Positions 3,644-44,317 of a DNA stretch of 64,000 nucleotides are shown piece by piece. Under the pieces are notes generated by a model, which was not told the DNA's origin, searched no databases, and saw nothing but the letters and a program-made list of their open reading frames with translations. The translations under genes were made by a program, and so were the position numbers. Numbering within the stretch: the stretch's first letter is position 1; the number at the start of each line of letters is the position of its first letter. This DNA is from a virus, in IMG/VR virus record IMGVR_UViG_3300010158_000027, positions 217,270-281,269 of that record; one strand, written 5' to 3'.

Positions 3644-4006
3644 ATGAGAAAAGATGTAGATAAAACATTAACAGAAATTTCACAAGATATTGTTGAATTG
3701 GTTTTAGGTAATAACAATGATAATAGTTTGGAAGTAGAAAAAGTTAGGGGATATTTGATGGATATTTTTGGTTATGATGCTAATTATAAACTTCACATAC
3801 ACACAGAAATTCCATTTGAATATGAAGAAAATTATACATTATTAAGAGATTTGAATGAAGGTGATGTATTCATTACTAAAGCAAATACGGTTTCAATGTA
3901 TTTAAAATGTGTTGGTGACGATAAACATATATTGAGAAATATAAATAGTTGTGATGAATATGAAGTACCACATGGTAAATTTCCAGTGTTTAAAAAAATT
4001 AATTAA
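3644..4006 (+). CDS. Hypothetical protein, 120 aa
   Basis: 120 residues. The N-terminal half looks helical; the C-terminal half (from about residue 68, LRDLNEGDVFITK, then YLKCVGDDKH) looks like a small beta-barrel of the sort common in Bacteroidota phage hypotheticals. Preceded by an A-rich leader and followed 2 bases later by the next gene. Function unknown. Confidence 0.6.
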   Translation: MRKDVDKTLTEISQDIVELVLGNNNDNSLEVEKVRGYLMDIFGYDANYKLHIHTEIPFEYEENYTLLRDLNEGDVFITKANTVSMYLKCVGDDKHILRNINSCDEYEVPHGKFPVFKKIN

Positions 4007-4008
4007 TT

Positions 4009-4206
4009 ATGAAACATTTTGATGATTTAAAATATATTGATTATGTGATTAGATTCACGAATCAACTTGATAGAACAAATGAATTAATGTTAGTTTGTTT
4101 GAACGTTATGAAAGATGAACCAACATTGACAATACGTGAAGTGATTGAAAAATCATTATTTGGTTTAGATATAGAATTGAATGATTTATTAGTTGAAAAA
4201 TCTTAA
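4009..4206 (+). CDS. Hypothetical protein, 65 aa
   Basis: 65-residue helical protein starting MKHFDDLKYIDYVIRF. Its C-terminal stretch IEKSLFGLDIELNDLL is closely repeated in a 24-codon fragment at 6187-6261, on the far side of the cassette-like block. Function unknown. Confidence 0.55.
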   Translation: MKHFDDLKYIDYVIRFTNQLDRTNELMLVCLNVMKDEPTLTIREVIEKSLFGLDIELNDLLVEKS

Positions 4207-4230
4207 TTTGGAACACAAAAGTAGTATTGC

Positions 4231-4326
4231 TCCTAACAGCTGGGTGTATGAGAAGGTTTGCTTAGATGAACTTTAAAATTACCACTAAACTTGATAGCAA
4301 ACTTTCTTATACACCTTGTTAGCACC
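4231..4326 (+). repeat. attC-like inverted-repeat element, copy 1
   Basis: The element is bounded by CTAAC (4233-4237) and GTTAG and contains an imperfect inverted repeat of 19 bases (4243-4261 against 4297-4315, 17 of 19 pairs). Layout and size match an integron attC recombination site. The R'-like core GTTAGCA matches GTTRRRY only partly. A close copy lies at 31412-31510. Flanking genes look like mobile cassettes. Confidence 0.55.
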
Positions 4327-10965: not shown

Positions 10966-11905
10966 TAAAACAAATCGGAAACGTCCGATAACGTTCTTTG
11001 AAATTCTAAAACCGACCGAAACAGTCACCACAGTTAAAAAAAGTGAATATAACACCTCCCTTTCTTTAAACGTGAAACTAAATTAAGTCATTGGGCCGTG
11101 TATGGTCCATTAAAATAAACCACGAAAGTGGGATAAAGTGAATTTGCGAGTGTTAGTAGATTTGCGTCTTGGGAAACTGAGGTCGAGTACACAAGTGGGA
11201 TATCATCCGACCTTTAGTATTGAGGGCGACGCTTTAGGGAAAGTGGTTGGATGGAACGGCAATGTGGATTGTCAGTCTGAGGAGGGAACTCCAATAAGAA
11301 TAACCCATAGGTATCAAGCGAAAAATATAAATTCCAAATATATAATTGCGGATACCATTATAAAAGGGGACTTAAAACCGAAAGGTAAGATAAAGAACGA
11401 GTGGTGTCGCTATTATCCCTATCAAAGATCTACCAAGATCTTGATATGAAGTAATCTTAAAATATGGAAATGGGGACATTTCACGAGGTAGTCAGGTATT
11501 CTGTTTTTCAAAAGAAAATGGATCCTAAACGGACCGCTACTTTGATTCATCCACAACACACAACTTATTACTAAATTAAGTAAAATTAACTAAAAATAAG
11601 CAAAAGTGTTCGTTACGATATGACGGAAGTTACCCACCTATTCACTGGCTGTCAGTGGAACGTGATAACCGCAAGTTTGACCGTATTTTTATGAAAAATC
11701 TCTAGGACGTCGAAATCCGAATCAGGACGCAATCTTGATGAGACAGGAGTAGTAAGAGAGTAGTTGTATCGTCAAGGAGTGATTGGTCTAACCAATCGGT
11801 AATGAGTGTTACAGGACAAAATCCTGTGGATAAGAGTAGAATACATAATGACTCAAAAGACACTTAATAAAAACTATAATCTCAGGTTTTTTTTAATATT
11901 CAAAT
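10966..11905 (+). ncRNA. Large structured non-coding RNA (candidate, class not identified)
   Basis: About 0.94 kb with no convincing gene, GC-richer than its surroundings and full of stable stems: 10974-10989; 11092-11109; 11120-11131 (CCAC-GAAA-GTGG); 11164-11168 with 11228-11232 enclosing 11180-11185 with 11208-11213; 11281-11292 (GGAG-GGAA-CTCC); 11421-11445; 11467-11482 (GAAATG-GGGA-CATTTC); 11641-11660; 11781-11797; 11811-11827. Three loops are GNRA tetraloops, typical of RNAs with tertiary docking. It starts at promoter P2 and ends at a tRNA-like gene and a terminator. Position and size recall GOLLD and ROOL, large phage RNAs found next to tRNAs, but I cannot assign it to either. The 103-codon frame at 11138-11449 begins with GTG, crosses several stems and is probably chance. 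Confidence 0.65.
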
Positions 11906-18233: not shown

Positions 18234-18266
18234 AACCCCCACTTTCTAATACAGGTGGGGTTTTTT
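18234..18266 (+). terminator. Intrinsic terminator
   Basis: CCCCAC / GTGGGG stem and six T after 17903. Confidence 0.82.
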
Positions 18267-18349: not shown

Positions 18350-18676
18350 ATGAACAAAGTAGAGATGTTTGAAAACGTACACCAAGAGTTTAAAAAAAGA
18401 GGTTTCGTTACTGATCCAAGAGGTGAGGCGTACGGAAGATGTTTATACAACCCTGAAACAAATGTTTCTATCCATGTTGGAAGTATCGGTAAATCTTCAG
18501 CGGGTATCTCAGTGTTTGATATGTCAAATAACGGTATGAACTGGGGCGAAGCATACAAAAAACTAAAAAATGGTGTAATGGTTAGGTTTAACTTCAATAC
18601 CAAAACTTTTGATAAATTTTATAATACAACATACCAAAATAGAGTAAAAAAATTGAACGTGGCGTTGGTAGATTAA
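18350..18676 (+). CDS. Hypothetical protein, 108 aa
   Basis: 108 residues starting MNKVEMFENVHQEFKKRGFV. Codon use is richer in C/G than most neighbours (TAC, AAC, ATC), consistent with good expression from its own promoter. Mixed alpha/beta, no motif recognised. Function unknown. Confidence 0.65.
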   Translation: MNKVEMFENVHQEFKKRGFVTDPRGEAYGRCLYNPETNVSIHVGSIGKSSAGISVFDMSNNGMNWGEAYKKLKNGVMVRFNFNTKTFDKFYNTTYQNRVKKLNVALVD

Positions 18677-18695
18677 AAATAAAAACATATCTTTG
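18665..18695 (+). promoter_or_regulatory. Bacteroidota-type promoter of second RNA island
   Basis: TTG at 18665 (inside the previous gene) and TATCTTTG at 18688-18695, 23 bases apart. It would drive the structured leader, the 18894 gene and possibly the tRNA-like array. Confidence 0.8.
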
Positions 18696-18893
18696 TAAGA
18701 CAAACAACGGGGGTGGGAAAGTTAGAGATGAGTGTCCTACTCCCGTGATAAGAAAAGAAGTTAATTGAAATAAAAATATGTGGTAGTAAAAAACGGGAAA
18801 CTCGTAAAGTGTATCAACCTGTTAACACAAGATAGTGAAACGAGAGTGTGTGTTAACTACTAAACTACAAAAAATAAATTAAAAATAACCATT
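18696..18893 (+). ncRNA. Structured leader with pseudoknot
   Basis: The first part has ACGGG ... CCCGT closing a domain (about 18708-18747). The second part has stem GTAGT (18783-18787) with ACTAC (18864-18868) around two interleaved stems: CTCGT (18801-18805) with ACGAG (18840-18844), and GTTAACAC (18821-18828) with GTGTTAAC (18850-18857). The interleaving is an H-type pseudoknot. It may be a cis-regulatory leader of the 18894 gene or the 5' domain of a longer RNA. Confidence 0.6.
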
Positions 18894-19166
18894 ATGAAAA
18901 AATTTGAAGATTTAGAGTTTAAAAAAATTGAAGATTCTCCGTATCAAACTGGGGTAACGTCTCGAATGGTGTTCGAAAATGGGTATGGTGTATCTGTTGT
19001 TTCTCATACATATTCGTATGGAGGTAAGGATGGTTTATTTGAGGTTGCCGTTTTGGGTAAAGATGGTGATTTAACTTATGATACTCCAGTGACAAATGAT
19101 GTTATTGGGTATTTGGAACCTGAGGGTGTTGCAGAAATTATGGAACAAGTTCAAGGGTTAAAATAA
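18894..19166 (+). CDS. Hypothetical protein, 90 aa
   Basis: 90 residues starting MKKFEDLEFKKIEDSPYQTG, predicted beta-rich (FENGYGVSVVSHTYSYGG). It follows a 200-base structured leader and precedes the tRNA-like array. Function unknown. Confidence 0.65.
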   Translation: MKKFEDLEFKKIEDSPYQTGVTSRMVFENGYGVSVVSHTYSYGGKDGLFEVAVLGKDGDLTYDTPVTNDVIGYLEPEGVAEIMEQVQGLK

Positions 19167-19172
19167 TATAAT

Positions 19173-19277
19173 AGTCAGGTGGCGGAATTGGTAGACGCTA
19201 AATTAATGAGTGGATAGCGTGCCATTGGGGAAGAACCAAGAAAGTTACGCGTGTTGGTTCGAGACCAGCCCTGGCCA
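19173..19277 (+). ncRNA. tRNA(Leu)-like element 1 with expanded insert
   Basis: Acceptor AGTCAGG (19173-19179) pairs with CCTGGCC (19270-19276) except at the end. D-arm GCG-GAATTGGTAGA-CGC is tRNA(Leu)-type. T-arm GTTGG-TTCGAGA-CCAGC (19253-19269) is complete. Between them are 54 bases (19199-19252) instead of the usual 33-38, with no 7-base anticodon loop on a 5-bp stem; it has a GCGT/ACGC stem enclosing TTGG/CCAA. Not a normal tRNA. Confidence 0.6.
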
Positions 19278-19280
19278 CTA

Positions 19281-19402
19281 AATTAACTGAGGAGCTGAAC
19301 AAAAAGTAGGCAATAAGGAAAGTGAAAATAGGTACGAATGTTTCACTGTGGTAAATGGGACCGTAACTCAAGCGTAAATAGGTTACGATCGGTAGGTTAA
19401 TT
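19281..19402 (+). ncRNA. Structured spacer RNA domain
   Basis: AATTAAC (19281-19287) can pair with GTTAATT (19396-19402), closing a domain with two clear hairpins: AGTGAAA/TTTCACT (19321-19327, 19341-19347) and CGTAAC/GTTACG (19362-19367, 19382-19387), the second extendable by ACCG/CGGT. No gene seen. Confidence 0.5.
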
Positions 19403-19410
19403 TTTTAAAT

Positions 19411-19560
19411 TGTCAGGTGGTGGAATTGGCAGACACAAATTGACGGTTATGGTACATACCGCTATCAAGAGAGCCGAATGTCCGTAAACACTCTATGACT
19501 TCGGAAGGTGGATAGAAACGTTCAAATAGTATCTTGTAGGTTCGATTCCTACTCTGACTA
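19411..19560 (+). ncRNA. tRNA(Leu)-like element 2 with 99-nt insert
   Basis: Acceptor TGTCAGG pairs with TCTGACT (19553-19559). D-arm GTG-GAATTGGCAGA-CAC and T-arm GTAGG-TTCGATT-CCTAC (19536-19552) are perfect. The 99 bases between them (19437-19535) hold a hairpin CGGT-ATG / CAT-ACCG with a 3-base loop and a second domain CTATC ... GATAG enclosing CCGAA ... TTCGG. No anticodon arm can be drawn. Short frames across it are not convincing genes. Confidence 0.6.
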
Positions 19561-19630
19561 CAAAGGAAGTATATGAGAGTCCTGAATGTACACAAAAGAT
19601 CCCTATTGACAGCTGGAAAGACAGCAACAT

Positions 19631-19750
19631 GGTCAGGTGGCGAAAACTGTTGGCGTCAGAGTATAAAACAAAGGGCAGAGCACAAAACACTGAACATGGG
19701 AGAGGCTGAGGAACTTCCATTACTTGCAGGTTCGAATCCTGTCCTGACTA
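19631..19750 (+). ncRNA. tRNA(Leu)-like element 3 with 69-nt insert
   Basis: A full 7-bp acceptor GGTCAGG/CCTGACT, D-stem GCG/CGT with a changed D-loop (AAAACTGTTGG), and T-arm GCAGG-TTCGAAT-CCTGT (19726-19742). The 69-base insert (19657-19725) has an ATGG..CCAT stem but no anticodon arm. Discriminator A at 19750. Confidence 0.6.
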
Positions 19751-19772
19751 CAAAAAATTAAAACAAATAAAT

Positions 19773-19919
19773 ATGGAAGACACAAAACATGCATGCGAAT
19801 GTGGTTCAACATCAGAAGACTTACATACATGTCCATTTGCAGAAGATATCAACGGCGATTATGAATCATTATGTAATTGCTGTTCTGAATGTACGCGTGA
19901 ATGTATGATGGACATTTAA
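19773..19919 (+). CDS. Cysteine-rich small protein, 48 aa
   Basis: MEDTKHACECGSTSEDLHTC, then CPFAEDINGDYESLCNCC and ECTRECMMDI. It has eight Cys and two His in a pattern (CxC, CxxxxxxxxCP, CNCCxxC, C) fit for one or two zinc sites. Similar short Cys-rich proteins are common in Flavobacteria. It lies between tRNA-like elements 3 and 4 with an A-rich leader. Function unknown. Confidence 0.72.
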   Translation: MEDTKHACECGSTSEDLHTCPFAEDINGDYESLCNCCSECTRECMMDI

Positions 19920-19924
19920 CATAT

Positions 19925-20034
19925 AGTCAGGTGGCAGAATGGTAGACGCAGAATAAAGAGGTAAAGGTCAATCCTCTATAAAAAATTGAGTAACCTACGG
20001 GGTTATATTACAGGTTCGAATCCTGTCCTGGCAA
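19925..20034 (+). ncRNA. tRNA(Leu)-like element 4 with 60-nt insert
   Basis: Acceptor AGTCAGG/CCTGGCA (end pair mismatched), D-arm CGAA-like GCA-GAATGGTAGA-CGC, T-arm ACAGG-TTCGAAT-CCTGT (20010-20026) perfect. The insert (19950-20009) has AGAGG/CCTCT with an 11-base loop, then TAACC/GGTTA resembling a class II variable arm. The 11-base loop is too long for an anticodon loop. Confidence 0.6.
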
Positions 20035-20299
20035 CATCGGTTATTTGATCTAGCACTAGGATAATAACAGCCATTAGATGAAGCTAGCGTCGTGAATGGA
20101 GGTGTAAGCTAAGACAGACTTACAAAGTTGGGGTACCAATAGATACAAACCCCCAACACAAACAGATTGACACAAAGGCATGAACAGTGGTGTTGTCGTA
20201 AAGTGTTATAAGATTAATGATAGCTAAAAAATAAATCTTATAACTAGGCTCTCGGCAGTACGTTATACAATCTGAACAGGTGCTTCCTGTTTATTTTTT
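20035..20299 (+). ncRNA. Structured RNA 3' domain ending in terminator
   Basis: Stems: GTTATT with AATAAC (about 20040-20045, 20063-20068) interleaved with CTAGC and GCTAG (about 20051-20055, 20083-20087), a second pseudoknot; TGTAAG/CTTACA (about 20103-20124); GTTGGGG/CCCCAAC (20127-20157); and an 11-bp perfect stem GTTATAAGATT/AATCTTATAAC (about 20205-20244). It ends in AACAGG-TGCTT-CCTGTT plus T run (20275-20299). No coding frame. It is probably the 3' end of the array transcript. Confidence 0.55.
20275..20299 (+). terminator. Intrinsic terminator of tRNA-like array
   Basis: AACAGG / CCTGTT stem with 5-base loop followed by TATTTTTT. Confidence 0.75.
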
Positions 20300-20343
20300 A
20301 CATAATACTTGACAATCTAAAAGTGATGGTTTAATATTATGTA

Positions 20344-20415
20344 AGTCAGTTAGCTCAGTTGGTAGAGCAATCCCCTTAAAAGGACGTGTCATTGGTTCGA
20401 ACCCTTTACTGGCTT
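20344..20415 (+). tRNA. tRNA-like gene of normal length (possible anticodon TAA), degenerate stems
   Basis: Acceptor AGTCAGT/ACTGGCT is 7 bp, D-arm GCTC-AGTTGGTA-GAGC is perfect and the T-loop TTCGAAC is canonical. The loop CTTAAAA would give anticodon TAA (20377-20379), but only two of five anticodon-stem pairs form (ATCCC/GGACG) and the T-stem ATTGG/CCTTT is mostly unpaired. It has class I shape, unusual for Leu(UAA). It could be a decaying or unusual tRNA. Confidence 0.6.
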
Positions 20416-20421
20416 ATTTTT

Positions 20422-27706: not shown

Positions 27707-28999
27707 ATGAATACATTAGATAAAAAATACACAGATTTACTCCGAGATATATTAGATAATGGAGTCCGCAAGGAGGATCGTACTGGGACAGGCACACTTT
27801 CAGTATTCGGAAGACAGATTCGTCATAATATGTCTGAAGGATTTCCATTGATTACATCAAAGAAGATGTATTTTAAGGGTATTGTAACCGAACTATTATG
27901 GTTTTTAAGAGGTGATACAAACATTAAATTCCTAATTGATAATAGTTGTCATATTTGGGATGGAGACGCTTATCAAGCTTATTGTGAGCGATATTGGGAA
28001 TTAGATGAGATAGATAAAATAAAATATGGTAGTTCATATTATAATAACGAAACTAATGAGTATGAGTTCGAAACATATTCAAAAGAAGAATTCGTTGACT
28101 ATATCAAAACAAATGATGAGTTTGCTAAGAAGTACGGAGATTTAGGCCCAGTTTACGGGAAGCAGTGGAGAGATTGGAAGCATATTAAAGAAGGCGGTTA
28201 CTTACTTAAAAATGGAAATGAAGGTACAGGAACAACAACTAAACATATTGACCAAATCGCAAACCTAATCAACGACCTTAAAACAAACCCAGACTCACGT
28301 AGGTTAATGGTTTCAGCGTGGCATGTTGGTGATATAGATGAAATGACATTGCCGCCATGCCATTTCGGATTTCAAGTTTATACAAGAGAGTTTAGTTTGG
28401 ACGAGAGAAAACAAATATTTGAAGATAGAGGATACGTTTGCGATCTATGGCCATTTAATGGTGACTGGCATGGTGAATATGATGGATTTGGAATACCACG
28501 CAGAGCAATCTCATTAATGTGGTCGCAAAGATCGTGTGATATTTTTTTGGGAATCCCATTCAACATCGCTTCTTATGGGTTGTTATTAGAAATCATTGCT
28601 AAAACAGTTAATATGGTTCCTGATGAATTGATTGGAAACTTGGGTGATACTCATTTATATTCAAATCACATTGAACAAGCAAAGGAACAAATAGGTAGAG
28701 AATTAACATATAAAGAACGTTATGATATTTGGTTTGAGAATAATTACCAAACTGGTATGGAATATAATTTAGATGTCGAACAAGACTTTAATAATAATGT
28801 TGGTGAAGATTACATGACTGTACCACCTTATAGGTCGAGAGAACCTTTTCCATTACCAACATTAAAAATAAATTCAGGAAATGATAATTGGCATTTATTA
28901 GGTATCAACGAAATCATTAATAGTTTAGATCCAGATATTACTTTTAAAATAGAGAACTATCAATCACATCCGACAATTAAAGCACCACTATCAAATTAA
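27707..28999 (+). CDS. thyA: Thymidylate synthase (ThyA type) with insertions
   Basis: 430 residues, against about 264-315 for typical ThyA. Conserved blocks: DRTGTGTLSVFG (24-35), FPLITSKKMYFKGIVTELLW, GPVYGKQWR, the active site LPPCHFGFQVY with Cys218, SQRSCDIFLGIPFNIASYG and LGDTHLYSNH. Two extra segments explain the length: about residues 95-140 and about 226-266, the latter between the active-site strand and the RRAIS-SQRS block. It methylates dUMP to dTMP using methylene-tetrahydrofolate, feeding phage DNA synthesis. No dCMP hydroxymethylase signature was checked beyond the active site. Confidence 0.93.
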   Translation: MNTLDKKYTDLLRDILDNGVRKEDRTGTGTLSVFGRQIRHNMSEGFPLITSKKMYFKGIVTELLWFLRGDTNIKFLIDNSCHIWDGDAYQAYCERYWELDEIDKIKYGSSYYNNETNEYEFETYSKEEFVDYIKTNDEFAKKYGDLGPVYGKQWRDWKHIKEGGYLLKNGNEGTGTTTKHIDQIANLINDLKTNPDSRRLMVSAWHVGDIDEMTLPPCHFGFQVYTREFSLDERKQIFEDRGYVCDLWPFNGDWHGEYDGFGIPRRAISLMWSQRSCDIFLGIPFNIASYGLLLEIIAKTVNMVPDELIGNLGDTHLYSNHIEQAKEQIGRELTYKERYDIWFENNYQTGMEYNLDVEQDFNNNVGEDYMTVPPYRSREPFPLPTLKINSGNDNWHLLGINEIINSLDPDITFKIENYQSHPTIKAPLSN

Positions 29000-43136: not shown

Positions 43137-43183
43137 TAACATGAAACATTTATCAGTGAGTATAAATTTAAAACTTGGAAGTC

Positions 43184-44317
43184 ATGGAAAATCAAAATAG
43201 TGTTGCGTATGTAGGAAAAATAGGTTCGGTGGTTGAAATACCAGGAGCTGACAACATAGAATTGGTGACTGTCGGTGGGTGGAATGCCATAACCAAAAAG
43301 GGTGAATACCAGATTGGCGATAAAATGGTTGTTGCTACTACAGATGCGGTAATACCACAAGCGTTATCTGACTTGATGGAAGTTACTAACTACCTTCGTA
43401 AAGGTCAAAGAGTTCGTACAGTAAAACTTCGTGGAGTTTACTCTGAGTGTTTGTTAATACCATTCAAATTTTTGTCACCAAAATCTTTGGAAAGTAATGT
43501 TAATGATGGTGACGACATGATGGGGATATTGGGTATTGTTAAATACGAACCACCAGTAAAAACCGTTCAGTTGAGTGTTGGGGGACGTAAAGTAAAATAC
43601 CACCAAAATCCCAACTTCAAGGTGTATCACAAATTCCCTAATCAAAAAAACGTACCTGATATGTTCAATGAGGAAGATGAGGTTGTAATCACTCGTAAAC
43701 TACACGGAACAAATTCCAGATATGGAATTGTGAGAAAGAAAAGACTTTCTTTATTGGATCGTGTTAAAATCTTTTTTGGTAATAAATGGGCGGGATTCGA
43801 GTTTGTAATGGGTAGTCATAACGTTGAGAAAGGTTCCGACTCACAAGGATTCTACGATACTGACGTATGGAAAACAATTGCTGAAAACTACAGAATACGA
43901 GGTAATTTATGGAAACACGTAAAGGACACATACGAACCATACGACTTATCTGAAGGTGTTATTATATATGGTGAAATCTACGGGGCTGGTATACAAAAAA
44001 ACTATGACTATGGTTTAACCGATATAGAATTTGCGGGGTTCGATGTTGAAGTTGATGGTACTTACCAATCACACATAAATGAAATGGTACACTTCAATTG
44101 CTTAGATTTACCACAGGTTGAAGTGTTGTATCGTGGTAATTGGGATAAGGGAATACAAGATAATTTTGTGTTTGATAATTTCATAGAGGGAACTAAAGTA
44201 CCACACGAAGGTATAGTTGTAAAATCTGTAACAGGTGTTCGTTCTAAGGTTTCCAAAGTGATAAACCCTGGATATTTAATAGCGAGTGAAAAACATAATT
44301 ACGGTGATTCACATTGA
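43184..44317 (+). CDS. RNA ligase, DRB0094/Rnl5-like
   Basis: 377 residues. Nucleotidyl-transferase motif I is ITRKLHGTNSRYG with Lys172 as adenylate acceptor; IIYGEIYGAGIQKNYDYG is motif IIIa-IV-like and HEGIVVKS is motif IV/V. The N-terminal 120 residues look like an OB-fold (IGSVVEIPGADNIELVTVGG). It joins RNA 5'-phosphate to 3'-OH ends. With the P-loop kinase at 35539 and HAD proteins at 46382 and 46795 it could repair host- or phage-cut tRNAs. An upstream TTG start is less likely. Confidence 0.82.
   Translation: MENQNSVAYVGKIGSVVEIPGADNIELVTVGGWNAITKKGEYQIGDKMVVATTDAVIPQALSDLMEVTNYLRKGQRVRTVKLRGVYSECLLIPFKFLSPKSLESNVNDGDDMMGILGIVKYEPPVKTVQLSVGGRKVKYHQNPNFKVYHKFPNQKNVPDMFNEEDEVVITRKLHGTNSRYGIVRKKRLSLLDRVKIFFGNKWAGFEFVMGSHNVEKGSDSQGFYDTDVWKTIAENYRIRGNLWKHVKDTYEPYDLSEGVIIYGEIYGAGIQKNYDYGLTDIEFAGFDVEVDGTYQSHINEMVHFNCLDLPQVEVLYRGNWDKGIQDNFVFDNFIEGTKVPHEGIVVKSVTGVRSKVSKVINPGYLIASEKHNYGDSH

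Follow-up and report, generated by a model that had tools for sequence, protein, structure and literature searches.

The tRNA operon of bacteriophage T4 carries two stable RNAs, C and D, whose function is unknown. As stable phage RNAs within a tRNA cluster they resemble the elements described here; neither is known to have a leucine-type chassis with exchangeable cargo. Larger structured phage RNAs, GOLLD and ROOL, are also found near tRNA islands, and some GOLLD RNAs carry linker tRNAs (PMC12286853). These differ from the present elements in their length of hundreds of nucleotides, their single conserved folds and their cages, and neither family matched the elements in Rfam searches.

With tmRNA (RF00023) the elements share tRNA-like ends and the replacement of the anticodon arm, which in tmRNA gives way to a large pseudoknotted insert. 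The first-pass annotation of this locus had judged the elements too short for tmRNA, and this holds, as they are far shorter, of the Leu rather than the Ala type, and without a conserved insert; the RF00023 model gave them 8.7 bits over 17 nt against a cut-off of 47. A common tmRNA-type tag appears unlikely in inserts that range from 22 to 145 nt and are completely variable in sequence. In the engineered tRNA scaffold (PMC3753655), the acceptor, D- and T-arms are likewise kept, a structured RNA stands in for the anticodon stem-loop, and the tRNA machinery of the host serves maturation and stability. That scaffold is man-made, whereas the phage elements are natural and Leu-type, have the variable arm replaced as well, and carry hundreds of cargos.

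A further molecule for comparison is tRNA(Leu), with which the elements share the bacterial D-arm, A15-U48, G18G19 and A73; unlike it, they have neither an anticodon nor a class II variable arm, and their acceptor is not that of the tRNA-Leu of the same phages. In E. coli, the leucine set comprises A73, A15-U48, G18G19, A20a and the D/T-loop contacts and excludes the anticodon and variable arm, and a tRNA(Leu) deprived of both arms is still leucylated (PMC9976931).

Four tRNA(Leu)-like elements and their surroundings

The window, that is, the whole stretch of 64,000 nucleotides that was analysed, contains the following features in and around the array (positions are those of the window).

18237..18260, + strand: intrinsic-terminator-like site upstream of the array (consensus match only)
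18894..19166, + strand: gene for a 90-aa protein (phrog_4074, function unknown), ending 6 nt before element 1
19173..19277, + strand: element 1; acceptor 19173-19179/19270-19276, Leu-type D-arm 19180-19198, cargo 19199-19252 (54 nt, family F1), T-arm 19253-19269, A73 at 19277
19411..19560, + strand: element 2; acceptor 19411-19417/19553-19559, D-arm 19418-19436, cargo 19437-19535 (99 nt), T-arm 19536-19552, A73 at 19560
19631..19750, + strand: element 3; acceptor 19631-19637/19743-19749, D-arm 19638-19656, cargo 19657-19725 (69 nt, module E3), T-arm 19726-19742, A73 at 19750
19925..20034, + strand: element 4; acceptor 19925-19931/20027-20033, D-arm 19932-19949, cargo 19950-20009 (60 nt), T-arm 20010-20026, A73 at 20034
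20273..20293, + strand: intrinsic-terminator-like site downstream of the array (consensus match only)
20343..20416, + strand: fifth tRNA-like gene, whose anticodon loop has 8 nt or is abnormal in another way, beyond the array terminator

Four tRNA(Leu)-like elements had been reported at 19173-20034 from the sequence alone, and both their coordinates and their insert lengths (54, 99, 69 and 60 nt) proved exact to the base. Common to the four are a GTCAGG/CCTGRC acceptor, a D-arm of the tRNA-Leu type, which is degenerate in element 3, a T-arm whose loop reads TTCGANN, and A73. In all of them the insert replaces the anticodon and variable arms together, and they are not ordinary tRNAs. One correction concerns pair 1-72, which is weak or mismatched in the window copies (A.C, T.T, G.T and A.A) and is A-U in most relatives. 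An independent scan recovered elements 1-3 at 19173-19276, 19411-19559 and 19631-19749, each followed by the discriminator A; the inserts it delimited are 54, 99 and 69 nt long. Element 4 (19925-20034, 60-nt insert) was missed by the scan because its D-stem is short, and is visible in the sequence itself; its cargo holds an AGAGG/CCTCT hairpin whose loop, TCAAT, is able to pair with a downstream ATTGA.

A valid anticodon arm hidden in these elements would have made them ordinary tRNAs, and none was found by ARAGORN, Rfam or the sequence scan. ARAGORN called no tRNA at the four elements of the window, and a 5-bp/7-nt anticodon stem-loop was absent from the elements of the window and from those of the loci fetched through a neighbouring protein. 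The Rfam tRNA model (RF00005, cut-off 29) gave 26.0 bits to element 4 and 24.9 to element 3, skipping the anticodon arm, and did not list elements 1 and 2; some relatives score above its gathering cut-off. Across the whole 281,269-base record, the acceptor/T-arm signature occurs only in the four elements and, with two mismatches, in the tRNA-like gene at 20343, so that a chance origin is negligible. Two ordinary tRNA genes lie elsewhere in the record, at about 82.8 kb. When the window elements were folded one by one in silico, none was significantly stable (z -1.4 to +0.4).

At the sequence level, the chassis holds the residues on which leucyl-tRNA synthetase relies (A73, A14, A15-U48, G18G19 and the D/T-loop contacts), and the acceptor, D- and T-arms are present with the residues of the tRNA tertiary pairs. 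The D-arm matches an annotated enterobacterial tRNA-Leu exactly over 22 nt. Among the matches listed, 216 of the 230 Leu-type copies have U48 and 206 have A73; in some chassis copies position 73 is G, T or C, or the D-arm is not of the Leu type. Beyond position 73, the bases are similar to those that follow ordinary tRNAs of these phages, and the same 3' maturation is therefore expected.

Decoys for anticodon nucleases had been suggested as one purpose of the elements. They do sit among tRNAs, and the record has a gene for an RNA ligase, an enzyme also encoded by phages that mend cut tRNAs. However, the anticodon stem-loop, which those enzymes cut, is the very part that is missing, and the cargo sequences are widely different; the suggestion is not supported, and we regard it as very improbable. 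The alternative offered with it, stable small RNAs, fits better.

Several other features of the neighbourhood were recorded. The phrog_4074 gene is followed by chassis-type elements with other cargo also in contigs L489, L516 and L527. Terminator-like sites such as those bracketing the array are about as many as chance predicts. The tRNA-like gene at 20343 is probably a related curiosity and no member of the array; a relative with loop changes, GCAATCCCC..GGACGTG, is found in L541, and similar 'ttaa' or 'ta' tRNA calls in L076, L077 and L079. Three non-coding stretches of the array, at 18676-18890, 19278-19410 and 20040-20160, have long closing helices, and the first and third are about 97% identical to L010, where other parts differ. 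These stretches are probably further structured RNAs, which would make the array an RNA island. A hairpin, GACAGCTNGGAAAGACNGC, at 19609-19628 recurs in L010, L086, L133 and L232 just 5' of several chassis elements, as a recurrent leader. The 3' domain of a GOLLD RNA (277 bits) lies in the same record at 11484-11888, 7.3 kb upstream of the array. An RNA ligase at 43175-44317 (phrog_968, E 2.7e-57) is suggestive of tRNA repair, and a thymidylate synthase of 430 aa at 27707-28999 has its family matched in two stretches, as if interrupted by an insertion.

Breadth of the class in viral contigs

Searches of IMG/VR viral contigs, a partly redundant set made up mostly of fragments, returned the 5'-half pattern in more than 100 contigs among the matches listed. 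In the loci fetched, inserts within a GTCRGG acceptor rose from at least 162 to at least 342 distinct sequences, mostly 27-99 nt long, the latter grouping into at least 262 sequence clusters. The final tally stands at no fewer than 358 distinct inserts in at least 316 loci of diverse viral contigs; these counts are lower bounds, and since three of the scans were seeded with the chassis, its identity is partly ascertained. Singletons account for 209 of the 262 clusters among the matches listed, and conservation of cargo is thus demonstrated only for the families examined below.

The absence of the anticodon arm goes with the acceptor. Among the matches listed in chassis-found loci, 46 GTCRGG acceptors had a normal anticodon arm and 378 did not, against 485 with and 99 without among tRNA-like matches with other acceptors. 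Because these loci had been found by chassis sequence, a chassis-blind recount was made on 80 loci fetched solely through the neighbouring 90-aa protein. There, the arm was missing in all 9 GTCRGG acceptors and normal in 75 of 89 others, and the 14 exceptions include several relatives of the chassis (e.g., AGTCTTG/CAAGACT). Genuine tRNA-Leu genes in these phages are intact, with normal arms and other acceptors. Together with the acceptor counts, this indicates that the elements are a separate class and not broken tRNA-Leu genes; nor, judged by sequence, are their counterparts in related loci normal tRNAs, an outcome that would have spoken against the first-pass annotation.

Elements and tRNAs form same-strand arrays: among the matches listed, all 330 elements share the strand of whichever tRNA or element is closest, at a median gap of 166 nt. 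In bacterial genomes, the strict chassis was found in only three MAG contigs, which are probably phage sequence binned with the host. In sequenced phages, no DNA resembled the region or any of the F1, F2 and E3 cargos, the matches being limited to chassis pieces and the element of Flavobacterium phage FL-1 described below. Rfam holds no family of this kind; at gathering scores, tRNA was the only family to overlap the elements in the window and related loci, and no other family matched cargo. An open-access literature search found neither phage tRNAs lacking the anticodon arm nor a class like this one. Conditional on that open-access check, this class of RNA is apparently undescribed. It would have escaped notice because its elements are for the most part passed over by tRNA finders and Rfam, or recorded as odd tRNAs.

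Two further observations concern the same islands. A second chassis type, GTCAGG-AGYGTAATGAGG..., has an insert of 27-68 nt in total that starts with GTGCCRAGTCC and ends near GGTTGCTCATT; pairing is possible between AATGAG and CTCATT, and this type is found at L074:7146-7260 and L076:7404-7518 and in L098, L104, L149, L168 and L186. Rfam also reported a freshwater-1 sRNA (RF02979, 85 bits) at L079:9176-9237 (- strand), in the same kind of tRNA/RNA island.

Pairing and exchange of the cargo

Cargo families were sought with cargo-only patterns, chosen to avoid chassis bias. The core of the element 1 cargo (F1) was found in 40 viral contigs (30 distinct copies) and a second cargo, F2, in 50 contigs (34 distinct copies). 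Copies not cut by contig ends had a complete chassis in all but three cases (L421, L438 and L474), in which the 5' half of the chassis has diverged. Across 20 aligned F1 elements, 99.1% of cells were paired against 95.4% in shuffles, and 10 pairs were changed on both sides against 1.5 (0/500 shuffles reached this); the double changes come from the acceptor, the T-stem and the cargo helix GCGT/ACGC. Across 22 aligned F2 elements, with a structure that includes a cargo pseudoknot, 10 double-change pairs were counted against 2.3 (0/500), mostly in chassis helices, with one pair from each of the two crossing cargo helices. The shuffles ignore relatedness, and their counts are not probabilities; the F1 and F2 signal was lost when partners were slid by 1-3 columns. 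Because the automatic scanner demands a paired acceptor and T-stem, its pairing percentages are biased, and the covariation counts for F1, F2 and E3 are unaffected by this.

Even wholly different acceptors remain paired, as in L417 (AGTGGTA/TGCCGCT) and L556 (AGTCTTG/CAAGACT). The comparative evidence shows that pairing in the chassis is maintained by selection, and comparison of copies likewise shows several cargo families with a conserved, covarying structure. These observations bear on whether the elements are decaying tRNA genes or tRNA-Leu pseudogenes, for which the odd anticodon loops of some adjacent tRNA-like genes could be cited. Covariation in both chassis and cargo, the paired acceptors of L417 and L556, and the intact tRNA-Leu genes with other acceptors in the same phages all argue against decay, which we consider scarcely tenable.

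The position of the cargo helices is also informative. Of 211 non-redundant inserts among the matches listed, 46% have a helix of 5 bp directly next to the T-stem, and 27.5% one of 6 bp; the corresponding values for shuffled inserts are 26.5 ± 2.6% and 11.6 ± 1.8%. If the elements were intron-bearing tRNAs that become normal after splicing, the insert would be in the right location, and the phage RNA ligase of the record is compatible with this. However, anticodon-stem halves at the insert ends were no more frequent than in shuffled sequences (28.9% vs 25.9 ± 3.1% of 211 inserts), Rfam reported no group I intron in the window or 21 related loci, and the cargo helices adjoin the T-stem; we give splicing hardly any credence.

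The cargo of element 3 (E3) was found in 15 viral contigs, inside a chassis in eight distinct contexts (window counted), and alone with its own closing helix in L010, L088, L576 and L579 (GTAATAA/TTATTAC, TTAGTTCAAG../CTTTTGAGCTAA, TTGATG/CATCAA and GAGGTA/TACCTT, respectively); in L572 it is preceded by the 5' half of a chassis. Its closing helix has 12 double-change cells against 4.0 in shuffles (0/500). Judged by its sequence contexts, E3 is an autonomous RNA module, and the comparative evidence shows cargo and chassis to be separable modules. E3 is not alone in this: the cargo of L489, among others, lies free between elements in L241, L086 and L133. From the free-standing cargos and the helices abutting the T-stem, the chassis appears to replace a simple closing helix. 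The E3 core (19657-19725) is G-rich, AGGGCAGGGCAC...GGGAGAGG..GAGG, with nearly invariant G-runs, and a G-quadruplex-like core is possible.

Sites that correspond between related phages carry different cargo. At the position of element 4, L010 has a 35-nt cargo in place of 60 nt, with the same T-arm and 3' flank as the window; its copy of the element 2 cargo (98% identical) is carried by a chassis whose 5' half differs; and after the phrog_4074 gene, the cargos of L489, L516 and L527 differ from that of the window. By these alignments, cargo differs among related phages at orthologous positions. The chassis could accordingly be seen as chiefly a recombination cassette, with conserved ends promoting swaps and a minor RNA product, and the same place with different cargo (L010 against the window; the sites after phrog_4074) favours this. 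Selection on RNA pairing is evident in chassis and cargo alike, however, and exchange is compatible with an RNA function and may be an added feature; as the main explanation, the cassette is improbable.

We consider it probable that the elements combine a fixed tRNA(Leu)-type chassis with an exchangeable, self-folding RNA domain and form a widespread phage RNA class, a natural tRNA scaffold. The original description of a tRNA chassis with variable RNA cargo is strongly supported by the cargo families, the covarying acceptor, T-arm and cargo helices, the free cargo copies and the swaps at orthologous sites.

Possible function and hosts

If the chassis works as its tRNA features suggest, the transcript of the array would be cut by host RNase P and RNase Z, CCA would be added, leucylation would be possible, and each cargo would be released as a compact, nuclease-resistant small RNA. 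Less certainly, the cargo domains may bind, block or titrate host factors, such as RNA-sensing or RNA-cleaving defences, which would account for their fast turnover. Action on host factors is favoured because the cargos turn over fast, contain pseudoknots, match nothing in their own genome and have no partner gene. The longest exact match of each cargo to its own genome was within the shuffled range, so that an antisense or spacer-like origin is unsupported, and no dedicated partner gene was found, the neighbours being diverse and protein clusters reaching at most 24 of 316 loci among the matches listed.

Phage escape mutants have silenced a type III toxin with pseudo-ToxI (PMC5086642). Type III antitoxin RNAs and pseudo-ToxI are, like the cargos, short and pseudoknotted, and are a model for what a pseudoknotted cargo could do. 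Unlike the elements, type III antitoxin RNAs are tandem repeats cut by the toxin itself and have no tRNA chassis, and the Rfam searches returned no match to them. By analogy, and hypothetically, the pseudo-ToxI escape route may serve as a precedent for phage RNA inhibitors.

The bait, on the other hand, might be the chassis. In such a case the elements would be decoys against enzymes that attack tRNA outside the anticodon, for instance 3'-tail nucleases such as Cas12a3 or modifiers of the acceptor or aminoacyl end, and the cargo would only block translational use. The conserved part is indeed the acceptor, T-arm and 3' end. Cas12a3, whose recognition involves the tail, acceptor and T-arm, cuts tRNAs even when they are truncated (PMC12851939), and by analogy could be a precedent for a defence that an anticodon-less tRNA body might decoy. 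This leaves unexplained why cargos are conserved with compensatory changes and are also present without a chassis, and we find it unlikely.

Regarding the natural tRNA scaffold, our fuller proposal is tentative: the elements may form an open-ended arsenal of RNA effectors on a shared leucyl-tRNA chassis, swapped, matured by the tRNA enzymes of the host, possibly aminoacylated and conveyed by its tRNA-binding factors, with proteins of the host or of its defences as targets. Such an arsenal would be the RNA counterpart of phage accessory genes for anti-defence proteins. The scaffold itself, if real, would add a new class to the non-coding RNAs of phages and show that nature anticipated the tRNA-scaffold technique, and its cargos, as self-contained RNA domains tested by evolution, would amount to hundreds of candidate RNA inhibitors, aptamers or sRNAs. 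The class also opens to test the role of non-tRNA stable RNAs in phage tRNA islands.

A cultured carrier makes the elements open to experiment. In Flavobacterium phage FL-1, an element that lacks annotation lies at about 19625-19797 of KY421186.2. Its cargo, 123 nt long, shares 70.5% identity over 95 nt (E 8e-9) with the cargo of L349, and one helix has changed entirely between the two and is still paired (GTTACA/TGTAAC vs GAGCAA/TTGCTC). Within phage records, the nearest relatives of a neighbouring 204-aa protein are in Bacteroides and crAss-like phages, which together with the FL-1 element makes Bacteroidota hosts likely. Additionally, the cultured jumbo phage pT24 of Tenacibaculum (L416) has two near-identical tRNA-Undet genes at 3790-3868 and 4157-4235, in which the anticodon region, GTTCGCGGGTATATTACCCTCGAAAGGTC, spans 29 nt; a single 'tRNA-Sup' is annotated there as well.
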